Virus record (IMG/VR): IMGVR_UViG_3300042301_000370
Location: 1 to 37,057 of that record
Length of the DNA: 37,057 bases
Origin: a virus
Reading direction: 5' to 3' (one strand)
The notes beneath the pieces are model-generated. The model was not told where the DNA came from and did no database searches. It saw only the letters and a program-made list of their open reading frames with translations. Below are positions 4,227 through 16,534 of this stretch, in pieces. The stretch's first letter is position 1. Each line of letters begins with the position of its first letter. The translations under genes and the position numbers were made by a program.

Positions 4227-5557
4227 TTCAGTTCCTCTAGTGCTATGTCAGATATGGCCCTTTTATCCTTCAGGGCGCCCCAAATGCGTTCATCTATGGT
4301 TTTGTTAGCCATCAATAGATAAACCCAAACGTTGTGCGTCTGCCCTGATCGGTGCAAGCGCCCAACGGTTTGTTCGTACAGTTCCAAGCTCCAAGGCAGG
4401 GAAACAAACACCATTTTGCAACCGCCATGCTGTAAGTTCAAGCCATGCCCTGCTGACTTAGGGTGAATCAATAGCAGTTCAATCTTGCCATCATTCCAAC
4501 GCTCAATGGCCTTGGTGTCGTTAATCGTCTGAGCGTGAGGATACCTGCGCTTGAGTTCAGCCAGTTCTTCTACGTAGTTGTAGACGATGATGGTGTTGGC
4601 GTGTTGGTTCTCCTCAATCAACTCGTCTAGCAAGTCAAACTTATGGTAACTGAACCACAGGGGCGTATTGGATACGTTGAACTTGCCTGGCGTGTCCGAT
4701 GCAGTCGTTTCGGTGTTGTAAACGAAACCTGATGACATCTGCTGTAGCTTGCCTGTTACCACACCTGCGTTAACGGCTGTAATCTGCTCAGTGCCAAACT
4801 CCACCACAAAGTCCTTCTTCATCTTTTCGTAGGGTGCTCGGTCATCTAGGTCGCACTTCATCTCAACTACATGGCATGGTGGCAGCTTGTCCTTGTATTC
4901 GCCTGCGTCTAACAGGAATGTTGCTGGTTTGATCTGTTTCATAACCGCCTCTAGTGAACCTACACGTGGCGCCCATTCGCCAAAGTCCTTGTTAACAAGA
5001 ACGAAATACTGCTGCATAAATGCGCCCTTGGCACGGCCTAACAAACTTTGATCCACAATCTTGCACTGACCAAACACATCCTCAAGACCGTTGCTAGTGA
5101 ACGAACCAGTCAAGCCCCAACGCACCTTAATCTTGTCAATCACTTTAGACAGGGCTTTAAAGCGCAGTCCTGATGAGTTCTTGAGCCTTGTCAGTTCGTC
5201 AAACACGATGCCATCAAAGTTCAAGTCTTGCGTAGCCAACCACTGTATGTTGTCGTAGTTAGTCACTACCACAGGCATATCAGACATGAGGGCGTGTAGG
5301 CGTTGCGCTGGCGTACCAACTGCAACGGCTAACGGCATACCATCCGCCCATTTAGGTTGCTCTACAGGCCACACGTCGGTGCAGACGCGCTTAGGGGCTA
5401 ACACTAGCCAACGCTTAACGATGCCACAGCGCAACATATCGGACATAGCCGTAAGGGTAATAGCCGTCTTGCCTGCGCCCACAGGCGCAAGAATCATGGC
5501 GCGGTCATGCTCGTACAAGAAGTCGGCAGCCTTCTCTTGGTAATCACGTAATTTCAT
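4223..5557 (-). CDS. SNF2-like superfamily 2 DNA helicase/translocase
   Basis: A 444-aa two-lobed SF2 ATPase. The Q-motif-like start is MKLRDYQEKAADFL, Walker A is APVGAGKTA (residues 24-32), the Walker B variant is FDELTRLKN (119-127, DELT in place of DEAH), a VTNYDNI segment lies between, and the second lobe ends with SAGHGLNLQ and motif VI QTVGRLHRSGQ (396-406). These are the features of the small SNF2-type helicases found with VRR-NUC nucleases in phage replication modules. It should move on duplex DNA using ATP, for example remodelling forks or recombination intermediates. Its start overlaps the methyltransferase stop by ATGA. Confidence 0.92.
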   Translation of the reverse strand: MKLRDYQEKAADFLYEHDRAMILAPVGAGKTAITLTAMSDMLRCGIVKRWLVLAPKRVCTDVWPVEQPKWADGMPLAVAVGTPAQRLHALMSDMPVVVTNYDNIQWLATQDLNFDGIVFDELTRLKNSSGLRFKALSKVIDKIKVRWGLTGSFTSNGLEDVFGQCKIVDQSLLGRAKGAFMQQYFVLVNKDFGEWAPRVGSLEAVMKQIKPATFLLDAGEYKDKLPPCHVVEMKCDLDDRAPYEKMKKDFVVEFGTEQITAVNAGVVTGKLQQMSSGFVYNTETTASDTPGKFNVSNTPLWFSYHKFDLLDELIEENQHANTIIVYNYVEELAELKRRYPHAQTINDTKAIERWNDGKIELLLIHPKSAGHGLNLQHGGCKMVFVSLPWSLELYEQTVGRLHRSGQTHNVWVYLLMANKTIDERIWGALKDKRAISDIALEELK

Positions 5558-6774
5558 AGCTTATCAACCATATCAATACCATCACCAATCCACTGCATCA
5601 CAGGCACAGCCATTGAGTTACCAAGGGCTTTGTAGCGCAAGCTGTCAGGCGATAGGTCTTTCTTGCGCCAAGGCACGTTGGTGTATCCGTCAGGAAAGCC
5701 TTGCAAGCGTTCGCATTCAATCGGTGTCAAACGACGCACTTTGGTGTCATAGAACAAGTGTTGATCTTGTAAAGTTGACAGCGTAAACGCTTGCTCATCT
5801 TGACCAAGGTAACCTTTACCACCGCCTTCACAGCCGCCACGTACTTTGAATGTGTGCGCTACAGCATGACGGTCAATCGTGTTCAAAGTAAAACTAACTT
5901 CTTCGTTGATGCCATCACCTTGTGGCCCGTTGTGGTCTTGACGACCAATCATAGAGCCTTGGATGCCATACGCTTCAACCAACGGTACGTTGCCACCACC
6001 TGTACCCCAACGACTTGTCACGGTCTGACACGTGTCGCCCATCTCTTTAACACGGCTGTCAGCAGGATGAGTTTCGTAAACTTTCTGCGTTAAGAAGGTT
6101 TCGCTTCCGCCACCGAGGACTCCACCGCTTGCCTTAAGGGTTCCTCCAATATCTCCTTGCTTATATTGAGCAAGGCTACTTTCAAAGAAAGCGGTAGGCT
6201 CTTTCCCCGACGCTCTGCTCGGCGCAGTATCCCTGCGCAAGCTACCGCGCTCAAATAATACTGCTGCGGGAGGGCGCCAATCTCCAAGGTATCCGACAAC
6301 AAAGACACGACGGCGTCGCTGTGCCACTCCGAAGTACTGAGCGTCAAGCACTCGGTAGGCGAACCCATACCCGAGTTGAGCCAACGCCCCGAGGAAGGAG
6401 CCAAAGTCCCGTCCTCCTGAACTTGACAAGACACCTGGGACGTTTTCCCAGACGAACCACTTGGGTCTAAAGTGGTCAAGCATTCCGCAATAGACGAGCG
6501 CCAAGTTACCACGTGGGTCATCCATTCCTTTCCTGAGTCCTGCGACTGAGAAGGACTGACAAGGGGTTCCTCCAACGATAAGGTCAACTGATCCATCTAA
6601 ACTCCAATCTTTATATTTAGTCATGTCACCATAGTTAGTGACGTCGGGGTAATGATGCGCTAAGACAGCGCTAGGGAACGGCTCAATCTCGCTGTAACCC
6701 GCAGGTTTCCAACCTAAATCGTGCCATGCAACGGTTGCGGCTTCAATGCCACTGCAAACTGATAAGTATTTCAA
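5554..6774 (-). CDS. DNA C5-cytosine methyltransferase (orphan)
   Basis: A 406-aa C5-cytosine methyltransferase with motif I (CSGIEAATVAW), the catalytic GGTPCQSFS loop (Cys72), the motif VI WENVPG, motif VIII QRRRRVF and the C-terminal RYKALGNSMAVPV helix. The variable region between about 165 and 370 should recognise the target. It transfers methyl groups to cytosines in duplex DNA and, with no restriction enzyme nearby, probably protects phage DNA from host restriction. The start is TTG at 6774, overlapping the upstream TGA (TTGA); this is the only start that keeps motif I. Residues about 60-228 are also coded in another frame by the nested ORF. Confidence 0.93.
   Translation of the reverse strand: MKYLSVCSGIEAATVAWHDLGWKPAGYSEIEPFPSAVLAHHYPDVTNYGDMTKYKDWSLDGSVDLIVGGTPCQSFSVAGLRKGMDDPRGNLALVYCGMLDHFRPKWFVWENVPGVLSSSGGRDFGSFLGALAQLGYGFAYRVLDAQYFGVAQRRRRVFVVGYLGDWRPPAAVLFERGSLRRDTAPSRASGKEPTAFFESSLAQYKQGDIGGTLKASGGVLGGGSETFLTQKVYETHPADSRVKEMGDTCQTVTSRWGTGGGNVPLVEAYGIQGSMIGRQDHNGPQGDGINEEVSFTLNTIDRHAVAHTFKVRGGCEGGGKGYLGQDEQAFTLSTLQDQHLFYDTKVRRLTPIECERLQGFPDGYTNVPWRKKDLSPDSLRYKALGNSMAVPVMQWIGDGIDMVDKL
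6090..6596 (-). CDS. Nested overlapping ORF inside the methyltransferase gene
   Basis: A 168-codon ORF on the same strand as the methyltransferase but in another frame, lying entirely inside it. Its ATG at 6596 has a GGAG 5 bases upstream (GGAGTTTAGATG). The product is Ser-rich at the N-terminus and ends with a basic helical block, ACAGILRRAERRGKSLP (residues 118-135). I recall this block in phage proteins annotated as hypothetical near DNA methylases, but I could not check that here. If the memory is right, both frames are under selection. Alternatively the ORF is only a chance opening imposed by the methyltransferase codons. Function unknown. Confidence 0.55.
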   Translation of the reverse strand: MDQLTLSLEEPLVSPSQSQDSGKEWMTHVVTWRSSIAECLTTLDPSGSSGKTSQVSCQVQEDGTLAPSSGRWLNSGMGSPTECLTLSTSEWHSDAVVSLLSDTLEIGALPQQYYLSAVACAGILRRAERRGKSLPLSLKVALLNISKEILEEPLRQAVESSVAEAKPS

Positions 6775-7303: not shown

Positions 7304-8440
7304 ATGACAGTCGTAACAGCCCACAGCCGAGTTGTCGGCGGTTCAACAGCCAAGCGTGTGATTGCTTGTCCAGGCTCAGTTGCTCTATGCGACACAGTGC
7401 CACCAAAGCCAAGTAGCAAATACGCTGACGAAGGCACCCTATTACATAACATCATTTCTGAAGTGCTTGAAACAAATAAAGCGCCTATTGATTTCTTAGG
7501 CACTAAGTACAACGACGTGGTGTTCACCAAAGAATTATTAGAGGACAAGCTGTTCCCAGCCTTGGACTTGTTAGACGAAGTAGACCCTAAGAAGGAGATG
7601 GAATATGCAACTGAAACTCGCGTTGGCTTTGGCGATTTTCTTCCTGATGTGTTTGGTAGTACCGATCTCCTTGGTCGTATTGGGACAAGAGCTATCGTCT
7701 TGGATTGGAAGTTTGGTTCAGGCGTAGCCGTTGACGCTGAAGAAAACCAACAGTTGATGTTCTATGCAGCCGCAGCTATGCGTACCAAAGAGTCGCAGTG
7801 GGTGTTTGAAGGTGCGACTGAGATTGAGTGCATCATTGTGCAACCGCCTGAAATCAAGCGTTGGATAACAACACCCGAGCGCATCAAAGCGTTTGAGAAT
7901 GAACTCAAGATGGCCGTACAGATTGCACAAAAGCCTGACGCACCGTTGAGCCATGGCGAGCACTGCCGTTGGTGTGCCGCCAAGCCTGTCTGTCCTAAAA
8001 TGACAGGTGCAGTAGACCGCGCTTTAAAAGCACAGATTGAAGCGTTAGACGTGGTGCACATTGGTGGCTATCTTAAGAACGCGGATATGTTAGAGCAGTG
8101 GATTACAGACCTACGCGCCCTAGCACATCAAGTATTAGAATCTGGCAAAGAAGTGCCAGGTTGGAAGTTGGTTGCTAAACGCGCCACACGTCAATGGGTG
8201 GATGAGGAATTGGCAGCCAAAGCACTAGCTCAGGATATGAGCCAAGACGAGTTGTATACTAAAAAATTATTGTCGCCTGCTCAAGCAGAAAAGATACTTA
8301 AGAAGGCGAAAAAAGAATTACCCGCTAGTCACGTAGTTGCGATTAGCTCAGGTAGTACGTTGGCACCCGTGGATGATCCACGCCCAGCGGTGTTGCAAAT
8401 CGGGCAGCAGTTGACCGCAGCCCTCTCTAAACTTCAATAA
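7304..8440 (+). CDS. Cas4/RecB-like nuclease, DUF2800 family
   Basis: A 378-aa protein of the PD-(D/E)xK nuclease superfamily. It shows the D-x-K core (VLDWKFG, Asp134 and Lys136), the downstream QLMFYA motif, and four Cys placed as in Cas4/AddB iron-sulfur nucleases: Cys22 near the N-terminus (IACPGS) and Cys221, Cys224 and Cys230 (CRWCAAKPVC). DUF2800 proteins sit at the head of phage operons with a ssDNA-binding protein and DNA polymerase I, as here, and are thought to process DNA ends. The ATG has AAGGA 6 bases upstream. It is the first gene of the replication operon. The iron-sulfur cluster is inferred from the Cys pattern. Confidence 0.85.
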   Translation: MTVVTAHSRVVGGSTAKRVIACPGSVALCDTVPPKPSSKYADEGTLLHNIISEVLETNKAPIDFLGTKYNDVVFTKELLEDKLFPALDLLDEVDPKKEMEYATETRVGFGDFLPDVFGSTDLLGRIGTRAIVLDWKFGSGVAVDAEENQQLMFYAAAAMRTKESQWVFEGATEIECIIVQPPEIKRWITTPERIKAFENELKMAVQIAQKPDAPLSHGEHCRWCAAKPVCPKMTGAVDRALKAQIEALDVVHIGGYLKNADMLEQWITDLRALAHQVLESGKEVPGWKLVAKRATRQWVDEELAAKALAQDMSQDELYTKKLLSPAQAEKILKKAKKELPASHVVAISSGSTLAPVDDPRPAVLQIGQQLTAALSKLQ

Positions 8441-11198: not shown

Positions 11199-13511
11199 AT
11201 GATTAGCTTTACGGAATATATCACAAAATTAGCACCAGAGGGTGAAACTGCCCTGTTTGTGCGTCAAAAACCACAACTGAAGGACGGTGAGCTACAGTTC
11301 CATGCCGATGGCGCTGTCAAATGCACATGGCCTGCTTACCTGCCGACCACCAAGATGAAGGCCACTGAGTCATGGTATGGCAACACAGGCTCGTTCATCA
11401 TTGACCGCTTCGAGGATGGGCGCGTGTCCGCTTCGGCTGCCAACTGCGAGTATGTTCTCGTGATGATGCTAGACGACGTGGGCGACCCTGCCAAAACAAC
11501 CAAGGTGCCTGAGCTACCGCCCACATGGATTATGGAAACGTCAGAGGGTTCGTTCCAATGGGGTTACGCCTTCTCTGAGCAGCCGACCAAGGGTGACTAC
11601 ACCGCAGCCATCAAAGCCATCGCTGAGGCTGGCTATTGCGACAAGGGCGCTACTAACGCCGTGCGTAACTTCCGTCTGCCAGGCTCTGTGAACCTCAAGC
11701 CGAACAAGAACGGCTGGGCTGCCAAACTCGTGGAGTTCCACCCTGAGCGTGAATACACCTTAGAACAGATCTGCGAAGCGCTTGATGTCGTGCCTGCTGA
11801 GGGCGACACCACAGCCAACGCGCCTATTCGTCTTGCTGATACAGGCAAGGATTCAGTCGTGTCATGGATGAACGATAACGGCATGGTGTTGTCTGCACCG
11901 AATGGCGAAGGCTGGATGGGTGTTATCTGCCCTAACCATGCCGAGCATACCGACGGCAACCCTGAAGCACGTTACAAGCCATTGGATCGTTCATTCTGTT
12001 GCTTGCACAGTCACTGTGTTGATTTTGACTCTAATACGTTCTTGAAGTGGGTTGCTGAGAACGGTGGCCCTGAGGTTCATCATGGTTTGCGTGATGAGCT
12101 ATTGGCTGCGGTGATGGAGCAAACGCTTTCTAAGTTAACACCAACTGAAATGTTTACTGATGATGCTGAGGCGCGCATTGCTGAAGTAGAGCGCAAAGAG
12201 TTGGGTCGCATTCAAAAGTCTGAGTGGTATGAGCGCTTCGCCTATATCCAAGACGATGAGGCTTACTTTGATTTGCAAGACAGACGTGAGATTAGTCGCA
12301 ATACGTTTAACGCTCTGTTCCGTCATATTGAGTGCCGTTCTATTCATAGCCAACAGCGCATCCTGCCATCCATCTGTTTTGATGAGAACCGCCAGGCAAT
12401 GGGCGCCAAAGCTTTGGTTGGTATTACCTACGCAGCAGGGGATAATATGTTGGTTGCCCGCGATGGCGATGTGTACGGCAACCGTTGGCGTGATGCTCGC
12501 CCTGAGTTAGATGATGAGCCTATGGGTGACGTGTCCATGTGGCTTGACCATTGTAAAACTTTGGTGCCAGATGAAGCTGAGTTGAATCACCTGTTCGATA
12601 TGATGGCGTTCAAGGTGCAACACCCTGAAATTAAGATTAACCATGCTGTTTTACACGCAGGTGATGAAGGCAGTGGTAAAGACACCTTTTGGGCGCCGTT
12701 CATCTGGGCAGTCTGTGGGCCACACCTTAAAAACAGGGGCATCATGGACAACGACTCTGTTAATAGTCAATGGGGCTATCAACTCGAGTCGGAAGTCCTG
12801 TTGATCAACGAATTAAAAGAACCTGACGCAAAAGAACGCAGAGCGTTGGCTAACAAACTCAAGCCAATCATCGCAGCGCCTCCGGAAATGCTACCTATCA
12901 ACCGTAAGGGTCTACACCCCTATCAAATGGTGAATCGCCTGTTCGTGTTGGCATTTTCAAATGACCCTGTTCCAATTTCATTGGCTAGTCAAGACCGCCG
13001 TTGGTTCTGTGTTTGGTCGACTGCGCCTCGAATGGATCCGTCTGTCGCTCAAAAAATGTGGGCTTGGTATAAGTCGGGCGGGTTTCAATCAATCGCTAAG
13101 TGGTTTTACGCTCGTGACGTGTCTAAGTTCAACCCGTCTGCGCCTCCAATGTGGACTGAGTTCAAAGCCAACTTAGTCGAACACGGTATGAGCATGGCAG
13201 AAAGCTATTTAGTTGAGATGTTGAAGAACAGAACGGGCGAATTTTCGCGCGGTGTCATCGGCTCGCCTTTCCACTCGCTCTGTGATCGATTGGCGGGTCA
13301 AGCCCCTAGTGGTGTGAAAGTCCCTCAGGCTGCCCTACTTCATGCGTTAAAAGAAGCGGGTTGGATTGATTGCGGGCGCCTTGCTTCGCATGATTTCCCA
13401 AGCAAGAAGCATATATTCGCATCGCCTGAGATTTACGAAACCGCAAAGAAATCAGATATTAGGCGCATGGTTGAAGAAAATCCACCGCCTAAAATGGTTC
13501 TTGTTAAGTAA
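11199..13511 (+). CDS. DNA primase-helicase (DUF5906-type)
   Basis: A 770-aa replication protein. The N-terminal part resembles archaeo-eukaryotic-type primase regions of phage proteins. A zinc-binding patch follows at about 243-280 (CPNH, then CCLHSHC), and then a superfamily 3-like helicase with Walker A GDEGSGKDT (488-496), Walker B LLINELKEP (534-542) and the RRWFCVWS segment of DUF5906 proteins. It should unwind the fork and make primers for the family A polymerase upstream. A ribosome binding site (GAAAGG) precedes the ATG. It is the last gene of the rightward replication operon and ends on a strong terminator. Confidence 0.88.
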   Translation: MISFTEYITKLAPEGETALFVRQKPQLKDGELQFHADGAVKCTWPAYLPTTKMKATESWYGNTGSFIIDRFEDGRVSASAANCEYVLVMMLDDVGDPAKTTKVPELPPTWIMETSEGSFQWGYAFSEQPTKGDYTAAIKAIAEAGYCDKGATNAVRNFRLPGSVNLKPNKNGWAAKLVEFHPEREYTLEQICEALDVVPAEGDTTANAPIRLADTGKDSVVSWMNDNGMVLSAPNGEGWMGVICPNHAEHTDGNPEARYKPLDRSFCCLHSHCVDFDSNTFLKWVAENGGPEVHHGLRDELLAAVMEQTLSKLTPTEMFTDDAEARIAEVERKELGRIQKSEWYERFAYIQDDEAYFDLQDRREISRNTFNALFRHIECRSIHSQQRILPSICFDENRQAMGAKALVGITYAAGDNMLVARDGDVYGNRWRDARPELDDEPMGDVSMWLDHCKTLVPDEAELNHLFDMMAFKVQHPEIKINHAVLHAGDEGSGKDTFWAPFIWAVCGPHLKNRGIMDNDSVNSQWGYQLESEVLLINELKEPDAKERRALANKLKPIIAAPPEMLPINRKGLHPYQMVNRLFVLAFSNDPVPISLASQDRRWFCVWSTAPRMDPSVAQKMWAWYKSGGFQSIAKWFYARDVSKFNPSAPPMWTEFKANLVEHGMSMAESYLVEMLKNRTGEFSRGVIGSPFHSLCDRLAGQAPSGVKVPQAALLHALKEAGWIDCGRLASHDFPSKKHIFASPEIYETAKKSDIRRMVEENPPPKMVLVK

Positions 13512-14943: not shown

Positions 14944-15270
14944 TTAAAAGTTTTGGAAAATCACTTTGCTTTCACTAGTTACACCAACTAGCAAAGTATT
15001 CTTTTCTAAATAATCTAGGACTTGGATGTCGATGTTGCGCTCATAGTCAACGTCTAAATTAAACGCATCGATTACATCGTGAATAGACATCTCGGAATAT
15101 TCGCAACAGATTGCGATAGGGTCGAACTCTATTTCCTCGTTCATATCTTCTTCAAACAATTCAAAATGATCAAACAAGAACCCTTGACCCTCATAAGAGA
15201 AGTTATCAGGGCGGACTTGATTCATTTGGAAGCGGAACATATCTTTAGTTAACGTTTGTTTCATGGTCAT
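14944..15270 (-). CDS. Acidic protein, possible DNA mimic or antirestriction factor
   Basis: A 108-aa protein in which about a quarter of the residues are Asp or Glu, clustered in the middle (FEEDMNEEIEFDP), with a FDPIAICCEYSE motif. I associate that motif with small phage and plasmid proteins of unknown function. It is the first gene of the leftward small-gene cluster, with a good promoter just upstream, so it is likely made early. High acidity and early position suit a DNA mimic that blocks a host nuclease, but this is inference. AAAGG precedes the first of two nearby ATGs (15270 and 15264). Confidence 0.7.
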   Translation of the reverse strand: MTMKQTLTKDMFRFQMNQVRPDNFSYEGQGFLFDHFELFEEDMNEEIEFDPIAICCEYSEMSIHDVIDAFNLDVDYERNIDIQVLDYLEKNTLLVGVTSESKVIFQNF

Positions 15271-15314: not shown

Positions 15315-15343
15315 AGTGTAACAAGATTTATTGCACTTAACAA
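15315..15343 (-). promoter_or_regulatory. Leftward promoter of the small-gene cluster
   Basis: On the minus strand TTGTTA (15338-15343), a 17-base spacer, then TACACT (15315-15320). The expected start near 15308 gives a leader of about 38 bases before the ATG at 15270. The -10 box is identical to that of the terminase promoter. Confidence 0.5.
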
Positions 15344-15391
15344 GGCAATTGCAATAAATGTTGTTGCACATTGTGAGAAAAATGGATTTTT

Positions 15392-15806
15392 TAGGGTCAA
15401 ATTGTCAAAAGTAGGGTCAAGATTTTGGAAGGGTTGACACATACGAGAGGCGTTACCAGGTAAAGCGAAAAAGGTTTTTAGGGTCAAATTGTCATTATTT
15501 AGTTAATAGCTTAATAAATAGAAGATAGGTATTTGTGAGGAATGTATACGAGCTCGGTATATCGATTTTAATTTGATGACAATTTGACAATTTGACCCTA
15601 CTTTTTCGCCCGCTGTTTGTTGTCCCTGAAAAAAGTTAAGTCCCTTTTTTGCGTAGATGATGACTTTAAAACTAATGACAATTTGACCCTACTTTTTTCT
15701 CGATGACAATTTGACCCTACTTTTTAGCGCGTGACAATTTGACCCATGTTTGAGGGCGCCCAATCATCGATCCAAAAACCGATGACAATGTGACAATGTG
15801 ACCCTA
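15392..15806. repeat. Iteron array, consensus GACAATTTGACCCTA, in two opposed arms
   Basis: Reverse copies lie at 15392-15406 and 15479-15493, with a half copy at 15412-15420. Forward copies lie at 15586-15600 (with a tandem GACAATTTGAC at 15578), 15677-15691, 15705-15719, 15733-15747 (last two bases differ) and 15792-15806 (GACAATGTGACCCTA, with a tandem GACAATGTGAC at 15784). Three forward copies are spaced exactly 28 bp. The arms point at an AT-rich core. Most copies run on into CTTTTT or AAAAA. This looks like an initiator or regulator binding array. Confidence 0.85.
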
Positions 15807-15925
15807 AAAAAACCGTATGACCGCAAAGCCTTACCGCATAAGGGCGCCCGCCTTTTGCAACCCGCAAAGCCCCACGGCACAAAGGCGCAACGCCTGGCAG
15901 CCAAAAAGCATTTTTCTGAAAGGCC

Positions 15926-15945: not shown

Positions 15946-16030
15946 ATGGGTCAATTTGGCTAGGTGCTCTCGTGAACAAATTTTTTATTTTTTAGAAATA
16001 ACTTTACAGTCCACCCAAAATAACTTTACA

Positions 16031-16060
16031 TTGCACACGCAGTAAAAAGTTTGATACACT
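16031..16060 (+). promoter_or_regulatory. Late promoter in front of the terminase genes
   Basis: TTGCAC (16031-16036), an 18-base spacer, then TACACT (16055-16060) preceded by TGA. The start of transcription would fall at about 16067, the A of the terminase ATG. Just upstream, AAATAACTTTACA occurs twice (15996-16008 and 16018-16030), exactly 22 bp apart, which suits an activator bound on one face of the helix. Confidence 0.5.
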
Positions 16061-16066
16061 CACACC

Positions 16067-16534
16067 ATGTTTCATTCCATACCCTATGAACCTCGTAAGC
16101 TCGAAGCCACAGAGGGACGGCTCGAAGCTATATACGCCGCAGCCAAGATTGGCTTGAAAGGTGACGCCCTCGCTTTAGCTGCGGGAATGTTGCCCACTGA
16201 ATACAGACAATTGACTCAGTTTGATCCCGTCGCGGAAATGGCAGAACTCAAAGGCCGCGCTGATGGCGAGCGTGAAATGTCGCAAGTGCTCCACGCCGCG
16301 GCGCTCAACGGTGACGCTAAAGCAGCCCTTGAAATCTTGAAGCACCAGCACGGCTGGGTGGCTAAACAACAAATTAACGTTGAAGTTGATCAGCGCATCT
16401 CTATCACGCAGGCGTTAGAAGATGCACAAAAACGCGTGATTGACGCCATCGACATAACAGACATTACACCTAAACTTGAGAATGATTCTCAACAGCAGAT
16501 GATTCACGTGGAACAACAACAAAAGGCTGCCTAA
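16067..16534 (+). CDS. Terminase small subunit
   Basis: A 155-aa protein directly upstream of the large subunit. Residues about 20-50 (YAAAKIGLKGDALALAAGM) look like a helix-turn-helix for DNA recognition, and the rest is helical with an acidic, Gln-rich tail (HVEQQQK). It would bind the packaging site and deliver DNA to the large subunit. No ribosome binding site precedes the ATG; instead a promoter -10 box ends 6 bases before it, so the message may be leaderless. Sequence identity to a named family is not visible, so the call rests on position, size and fold pattern. Confidence 0.8.
   Translation: MFHSIPYEPRKLEATEGRLEAIYAAAKIGLKGDALALAAGMLPTEYRQLTQFDPVAEMAELKGRADGEREMSQVLHAAALNGDAKAALEILKHQHGWVAKQQINVEVDQRISITQALEDAQKRVIDAIDITDITPKLENDSQQQMIHVEQQQKAA

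Follow-up and report, generated by a model that had tools for sequence, protein, structure and literature searches.

What is the repeat-rich interval in front of the terminase small subunit gene (terS) of this virus for, and which protein reads its repeats? The interval occupies positions 15392-15806 of the window, by which we mean the whole 37,057-bp record analysed here, and is placed between a small leftward gene (14944-15270) and terS, whose start is 260 bp downstream. The record has a 127-bp terminal overlap, which indicates a circular or circularly permuted phage genome. Replication of this phage very probably starts at the array, and we consider it highly likely that the iterons are bound by the C-terminal winged helix of the primase-helicase, with the wing at residues 728-736 setting the sequence that is read.

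The original prediction described at least seven full copies plus tandem and partial ones, three of them spaced by 28 bp, around an AT-rich core of about 80 bp. These features are confirmed: five exact and two near-exact 15-mers occur together with tandem half-copies and one partial copy, the 28-bp spacing holds at 15677/15705/15733, and the core measures 82 bp (Table 1). Its AT content compares with 53.5% for the genome, and only 0.2% of same-size stretches are equally AT-rich. A motif search of the window allowing up to three mismatches returned eight matches, all inside the array; shuffled sequences had 0.78 on average and never more than 4, a comparison that excludes a chance origin of the repeats. 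The two arms are mirrored, the left on the minus strand and the right on the plus strand. Copies had been described as pointing inward; the mirror symmetry holds, but copies read as GACAATTTGACCCTA (5' to 3') point outward in both arms, with the GACAA end facing the core. The direction of the arrow depends on which strand is read. Program-made open reading frames of 60-76 aa overlap the array.

Table 1. Positions in the window of the array, the neighbouring terS gene and the proposed initiator.
Feature	Position	Strand	Basis
Primase-helicase proposed as initiator, 770 aa (RepB_primase/AEP N-terminal, DUF5906/SF3 helicase, C-terminal winged helix)	11199..13511	+	
Predicted C-terminal winged-helix domain, residues 665-741	13191..13421	+	structure model
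Wing segment LASHDFPSK, residues 728-736, variable residues track class	13380..13406	+	column score, wing rule
Iteron copy L1, left arm, exact	15392..15406	-	motif search
Partial iteron TAGGGTCAA, left arm	15412..15420	-	repeat search
Iteron copy L2, left arm, exact, 87 bp from L1	15479..15493	-	motif search
AT-rich core, 82 bp, 73% AT, candidate duplex-opening region	15495..15576	.	composition
CGATTTTAA, CGAyTTwAA-like element by inner edge of right arm	15563..15571	+	seen in alignments
Tandem iteron, 8-bp step, core-proximal right arm: half-copy 15578-15592 and exact copy 15586-15600	15578..15600	+	
Iteron copy, right arm, exact	15677..15691	+	motif search
Iteron copy, right arm, exact, 28 bp after 15677 copy	15705..15719	+	motif search
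Iteron copy, right arm, 2 mismatches, 28 bp after 15705 copy	15733..15747	+	motif search
Tandem iteron GACAATGTGACAATGTGACCCTA, outer right arm: half-copy 15784, copy 15792 (1 mismatch)	15784..15806	+	
Terminase small subunit gene, position marker downstream of array, not tracking iterons	16067..16534	+	

Relatives were gathered by their helicase (47 loci) and by TerS (80 loci); at least 599 contig stretches contain a TerS relative. We searched up to 1,300 bp upstream of terS in 115 regions for repeats de novo, and most of these regions yielded an array. Scores ranged from 3.4 to 13.7, nearly always exceeding 4, compared with mostly 1.8-2.8 for shuffled sequences. The position upstream of terS is kept, despite a wholesale difference in iteron sequence that separates at least five classes: class A, to which the window belongs (TGACAATTTGAC, tandem step 8 bp), classes B (ACATGACTnACA), C (ACATTGTCCACA) and D (AAATGACCCAAA), each with a tandem step of mostly 9 bp, and class E (ACAATGACYCAC, 10 bp). 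Some rarer iteron forms exist besides these. All copies within one array share a class, so the copies change in concert. The two-arm form was recovered by the automatic detector in 81 of the 115 arrays, with a core of 73-121 bp (median 93 bp, median AT 63%), and was not obtained with it in the other 34; copy orientation in this analysis was as expected in both the left (184 vs 20) and the right arm (448 vs 87). In alignments, the CGAyTTwAA-like element that flanks the right arm on its core side is seen again in the cores of several iteron classes, and it may be a class-independent part of the origin. That relatives keep the array in place despite its change of sequence gives good support to the view that iterons of the initiator type surround an AT-rich core here. 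Loss of the repeats in close relatives, which had been named as evidence against it, is seen for the letters (L011 and L013, terS 88% identical, are without the motif) and not for the array, a different one being in place.

Array detection upstream of terS gave a clear array neither in L046 nor in L066 or L152, where it was absent or odd, and the call in L051 is a simple tandem repeat. Unusual helicase wings accompany unrecognised arrays in L046 (LASAEHST), L051 (LSAAGYAT) and L152 (LASREFQT), which are possible further classes or lost arrays. A search of named phages with the DNA of the array region gave MW202483 as the sole match, via terS; this phage carries the repeat GTTTACATAAAC upstream of terS. 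No comparable array was seen near the helicase gene in the stretches read from Vibrio phages 1.021.A and MZH0603 (27-28% identity) and from MW202496.

Array class tracks the primase-helicase and not TerS, TerL or the DNA polymerase. The correlation between difference in iteron class and protein distance is 0.51 for the helicase, 0.19 for TerS and 0.21 for TerL, and the partial correlation with iteron class is 0.52 for the helicase given TerS and -0.21 for TerS given the helicase. Phages with class E arrays have helicases about 62% identical to that of the window and polymerases about 75-80% identical. We scored alignment columns in a way that rewards identity in distant same-class helicases and difference between near relatives of unlike class. 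The top helicase columns are 734 (1.68) and 729 (1.64-1.67), with 733, 732 and 731 among the best seven, compared with a mean of 0.07 (sd 0.22) over all 770 columns. The best column elsewhere reached 0.23 in TerS, 0.40 in TerL and 0.82 in the polymerase, for which only 19 sequences were available. When classes were permuted within helicase lineages (60 permutations), the maximum over the 770 columns was 0.82. Co-variation in sequence therefore identifies the primase-helicase as the probable reader of the repeats. The phage had been credited with no obvious Rep initiator, a statement that does not stand, as iteron type tracks its own primase-helicase at the C-terminal wing.

Within residues 728-734 the wing reads L-A-S-x-D-[FY]-[PMK] in class A, L-M-[SA]-R-x-Y-[TP] in class B, x-K-S-R-[ED]-[FY]-D in class C, V-A-S-G-D-[FC]-[QP] in class D and L-K-S-R-A-[HN]-T in class E; L113 and L150 agree in having another wing, ASRD[YH]TT, together with another iteron, TGCTTACA. 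A wing rule using residues 728, 729 and 734, with D732 added for class A, gives the right class for all 76 classified arrays, the same 76 loci on which it was fitted. On a helicase-body tree built from residues 1-690, which exclude the wing, array class changes 13-14 times, compared with 27 times on the TerS tree. Sisters of unlike class include the window (A) and L013 (B), L044 (A) and L041 with L043 (B), and L030 (C) and L039 (B), and L120 (C) is nested in a D clade beside L117. Pairs on non-shared branches agree throughout (class C with D734 in 7 of 7, class B with M729 in 6 of 6, class A in 5 of 5), so that exact co-variation of wing and iteron is a repeated event.

Predictions for unexamined arrays or helicases were right in nine of nine cases, eight of them written beforehand and the ninth (L155) not. 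All five loci predicted to be class C were found to be so (L018, L032, L036, L042 and L052), and both predicted class B loci (L012 and L040) had B copies in arrays truncated where the contig stops. From the class A array of L002 an A wing was predicted, and the wing reads LASHDYPSKK. L155, from a metagenome-assembled Rhodoferax bin and 61% identical, combines K729/D734 with a class C array of 10 copies. Predictions had also been made for L010, L028, L038, L045 and L049, on whose contigs no array was found. Several of the loci predicted to be class C have near relatives in the training set, and C is the class met most often, so that these predictions are not wholly independent of that set. The most stringent case seems to be L042, because its 72% identity to the window (a grouping by that identity, not by the helicase tree) places it with L041, L043 and L044, whose arrays are B and A.

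How such switches arise is suggested by near pairs of unlike class. The DNA of L030 and L039 is alike through most of the helicase gene, drops in identity from about nt 2,000 (residue ~670) and recovers at terS, the low-identity stretch spanning the accessory genes and the array; in L117/L120 the drop begins earlier. This pattern suggests that a single exchange can carry both the winged helix and the array, and part of the wing-iteron co-variation is therefore linkage, given apparent block swaps in several near pairs. Swaps running from about helicase residue 670 through the array would also suit an origin or regulatory site whose reader is a small accessory protein from a gene in the helicase-terS interval, with the wing hitchhiking in the recombination block, but we regard this as improbable. 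Linkage alone is insufficient, because distant same-class phages share the wing and not the remaining C-terminus (across distant lineages, only wing residues within the helicase track class, and neighbouring C-terminal residues do not), and because the genes between helicase and terS show no matching pattern of sharing. No small-ORF family occurs in more than 40 of the 85 helicase-terS intervals and none tracks iteron class; families with a window member have none in another class A phage among these intervals. The suggestion that the binder may be a small early protein or a host factor is not supported: the primase-helicase wing tracks the iterons as no small interval gene does.

The location of the array between a leftward gene and terS could also point to a cluster of operators for divergent transcription, bound by the helicase or another protein, with the origin elsewhere. 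GC skew, which had been proposed as a check, has no extremum at the array and a detrended minimum at 7516, as an origin elsewhere might have; we take it as neither for nor against an origin at the array. We give operators little credence, as promoter-like matches number four against a mean of 2.7 (sd 1.7) in shuffles, and the mirrored arms, the conserved AT-rich spacer and the helicase as tracking protein fit an origin better. Sigma-70 promoters, considered as features in their own right, were rejected as not clearly above shuffles, three of the four matches coming from the array's own repeats. No structured RNA or tRNA was found in the window. A pac/cos packaging site bound by the small terminase subunit, which the location directly upstream of terS in the relatives examined and the terminal overlap would fit, is very improbable, since L061 has a class B array with a TerS 95% identical to that of the window, and since neither the TerS columns nor the number of class changes on the TerS tree are in its favour. 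Co-variation likewise led us to reject TerS as reader of the repeats, as the site sequence does not follow it.

DUF5906 was found in the primase-helicase of the window and in all 61 aligned members. We modelled the C-terminal part from 57 sequences (mean pLDDT 73.6, and 82-89 across most of the winged helix) and the full-length helicase (mean pLDDT 68.9), both models being of middling confidence. The C-terminal model has helix 665-677, strand 686-688, helices 691-701 and 710-720, strand 723-728, loop 729-736 and strand 737-741, a predicted a-b-a-a-b-wing-b fold in which residues 729-736 form the b2-b3 wing. In the model, the wing of the predicted winged helix coincides exactly with the variable segment. 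The N-terminal part of the full model matches cyanophage S-2L PrimPol and RepB', and its middle and C-terminal part matches NrS-1, the SaPI5 primase-helicase and the poxvirus D5/E5 helicases, with an alignment to the SaPI5 protein (7om0/7ola) over residues 426-738 at a Z of about 11. The matches listed for the winged-helix model are mostly winged-helix proteins, none above Z 6.5, and the P4 origin-binding domain is absent among them; Foldseek with this model alone gave no match under E 0.001. A profile search of PDB sequences returned only NrS-1 at a meaningful score and no SaPI protein. Among 20 window proteins scanned, replication and early genes included, none has a Rep_3, RepA_N or other plasmid Rep Pfam domain.

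We propose that copies of the primase-helicase would bind the iterons through the C-terminal winged helix, the wing loop at 728-736 setting specificity. The mirrored arms would gather two groups of protomers in opposite orientation, which would melt the AT-rich core and be loaded as helicase rings, after which the AEP domain would prime and the phage's own family-A polymerase would extend. Binding of both arms, core opening and loading in two orientations, which the mirrored arms suit, are proposed by analogy with SaPI Rep and Cch2 (PMC7581432); physical iteron binding, core melting, the loading of two hexamers and bidirectional replication are inferred.

The best reading by comparison is a self-loading AEP primase/SF3 helicase that would work like SaPI Rep or P4 alpha. 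In SaPI Rep and SCCmec Cch2, the C-terminal domain binds iterons downstream of their genes (PMC7581432). Our system resembles these and SaPI5 Pri-Rep in that a helicase C-terminal domain would read iterons 3' of its gene, here by co-variation only, and resembles SaPI5 in the fusion of helicase to AEP primase. It differs from SaPI and SCC in belonging to free phages rather than islands, and in an array that is about 1.9 kb downstream, beside terS, with accessory genes between; in the relatives examined the helicase-terS interval is about 1.6-4.7 kb, also with accessory genes inside and the array downstream of the helicase. Phage P4 alpha, whose winged-helix origin-binding domain acts at ori repeats (Yeo et al. 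2002, as cited in PMC4234260), likewise unites primase, helicase and C-terminal winged helix (here predicted) in one protein, but its primase is of the Toprim type (PMC4234260) and not AEP/RepB-like as here. The domain order AEP, SF3 and C-terminal winged helix is shared with pRN1 ORF904-type proteins, for which the authors found no iterons and proposed assembly on a stem-loop (PMC4234260); unlike in pRN1, an iteron array here tracks the winged helix. NrS-1 phage primase-polymerase is the best match of the helicase part in both sequence and structure, and the account available to us describes an 8-nt recognition sequence in two copies, proposed as origin, and no iteron array (PMC7102993).

Coupled change has precedents in unrelated systems. 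Iteron letters and a short Rep segment (IRD) change together in geminiviruses at constant origin layout, and block recombination can move both partners at once, as here, although Rep is an unrelated rolling-circle protein of ssDNA plant viruses that uses an N-terminal domain (PMC2974675). DNA-binding domain and origin also co-vary, and were swapped more than once, in PLE satellite RepA_N-origin modules and the ICP1 nuclease Odn (PMC8263062); there, RepA_N lacks a helicase and two modules are found in five satellites, whereas the phages described here have at least five classes and have switched about 14 times. Helicase-read iteron origins (SaPI, SCC, P4) and coupled domain-iteron switching (geminiviruses, PMC2974675; PLE, PMC8263062) are thus already known. 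What appears to be new is an AEP-SF3-winged-helix initiator system in a large phage group, where specificity lies in the wing, falls into at least five classes and has switched about 14 times; the literature searched, in which few subscription journals were covered, contained no account of such a system.

For a large and mostly uncultivated phage group, an initiator, its specificity-setting residues and its origin could thereby be named from sequence alone. The many natural switches resemble replicated swap experiments, make origin recognition by AEP-SF3-winged-helix proteins directly testable, and bear on the stem-loop proposal for such proteins (PMC4234260). They also raise the question of what drives such frequent origin change in phages. 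We suggest tentatively, and with more doubt than conviction, that the classes form orthogonal replication groups, that wing-iteron swapping is adaptive (through satellite escape, origin-targeting defences or co-infection interference), and that the pairs amount to a readable recognition code of helicase-initiators.

Several further features were observed in the window and its relatives. The DnaA-box consensus is TTATCCACA, and the class C iterons (TTGTCCACA; L017, L021, L042 and other class C loci) are one base off it, so that host DnaA might bind class C arrays. Both Manatee Spring phage records have a small protein annotated as 'dnaa protein helix-turn-helix' (L009:7083-7379 and L141:3143-3610). 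Between the leftward small gene and the array, an imperfect inverted repeat (15316-15369; 23-nt arms, 87% complementary, 8-nt spacer) may act as an operator or form a hairpin. To the right of the array are two 27-nt copies (CCGCAAAGCC...; 15821-15888) that are 81% alike and 41 bp apart, and a 22-nt direct repeat (AAATAACTTTACA...; 15996-16039) just 5' of terS is a candidate regulatory or TerS-binding site. A C-5 cytosine methylase gene on the minus strand (5554-6774) contains a 168-aa open frame on the same strand (6090-6596), which is possibly overprinted or spurious.
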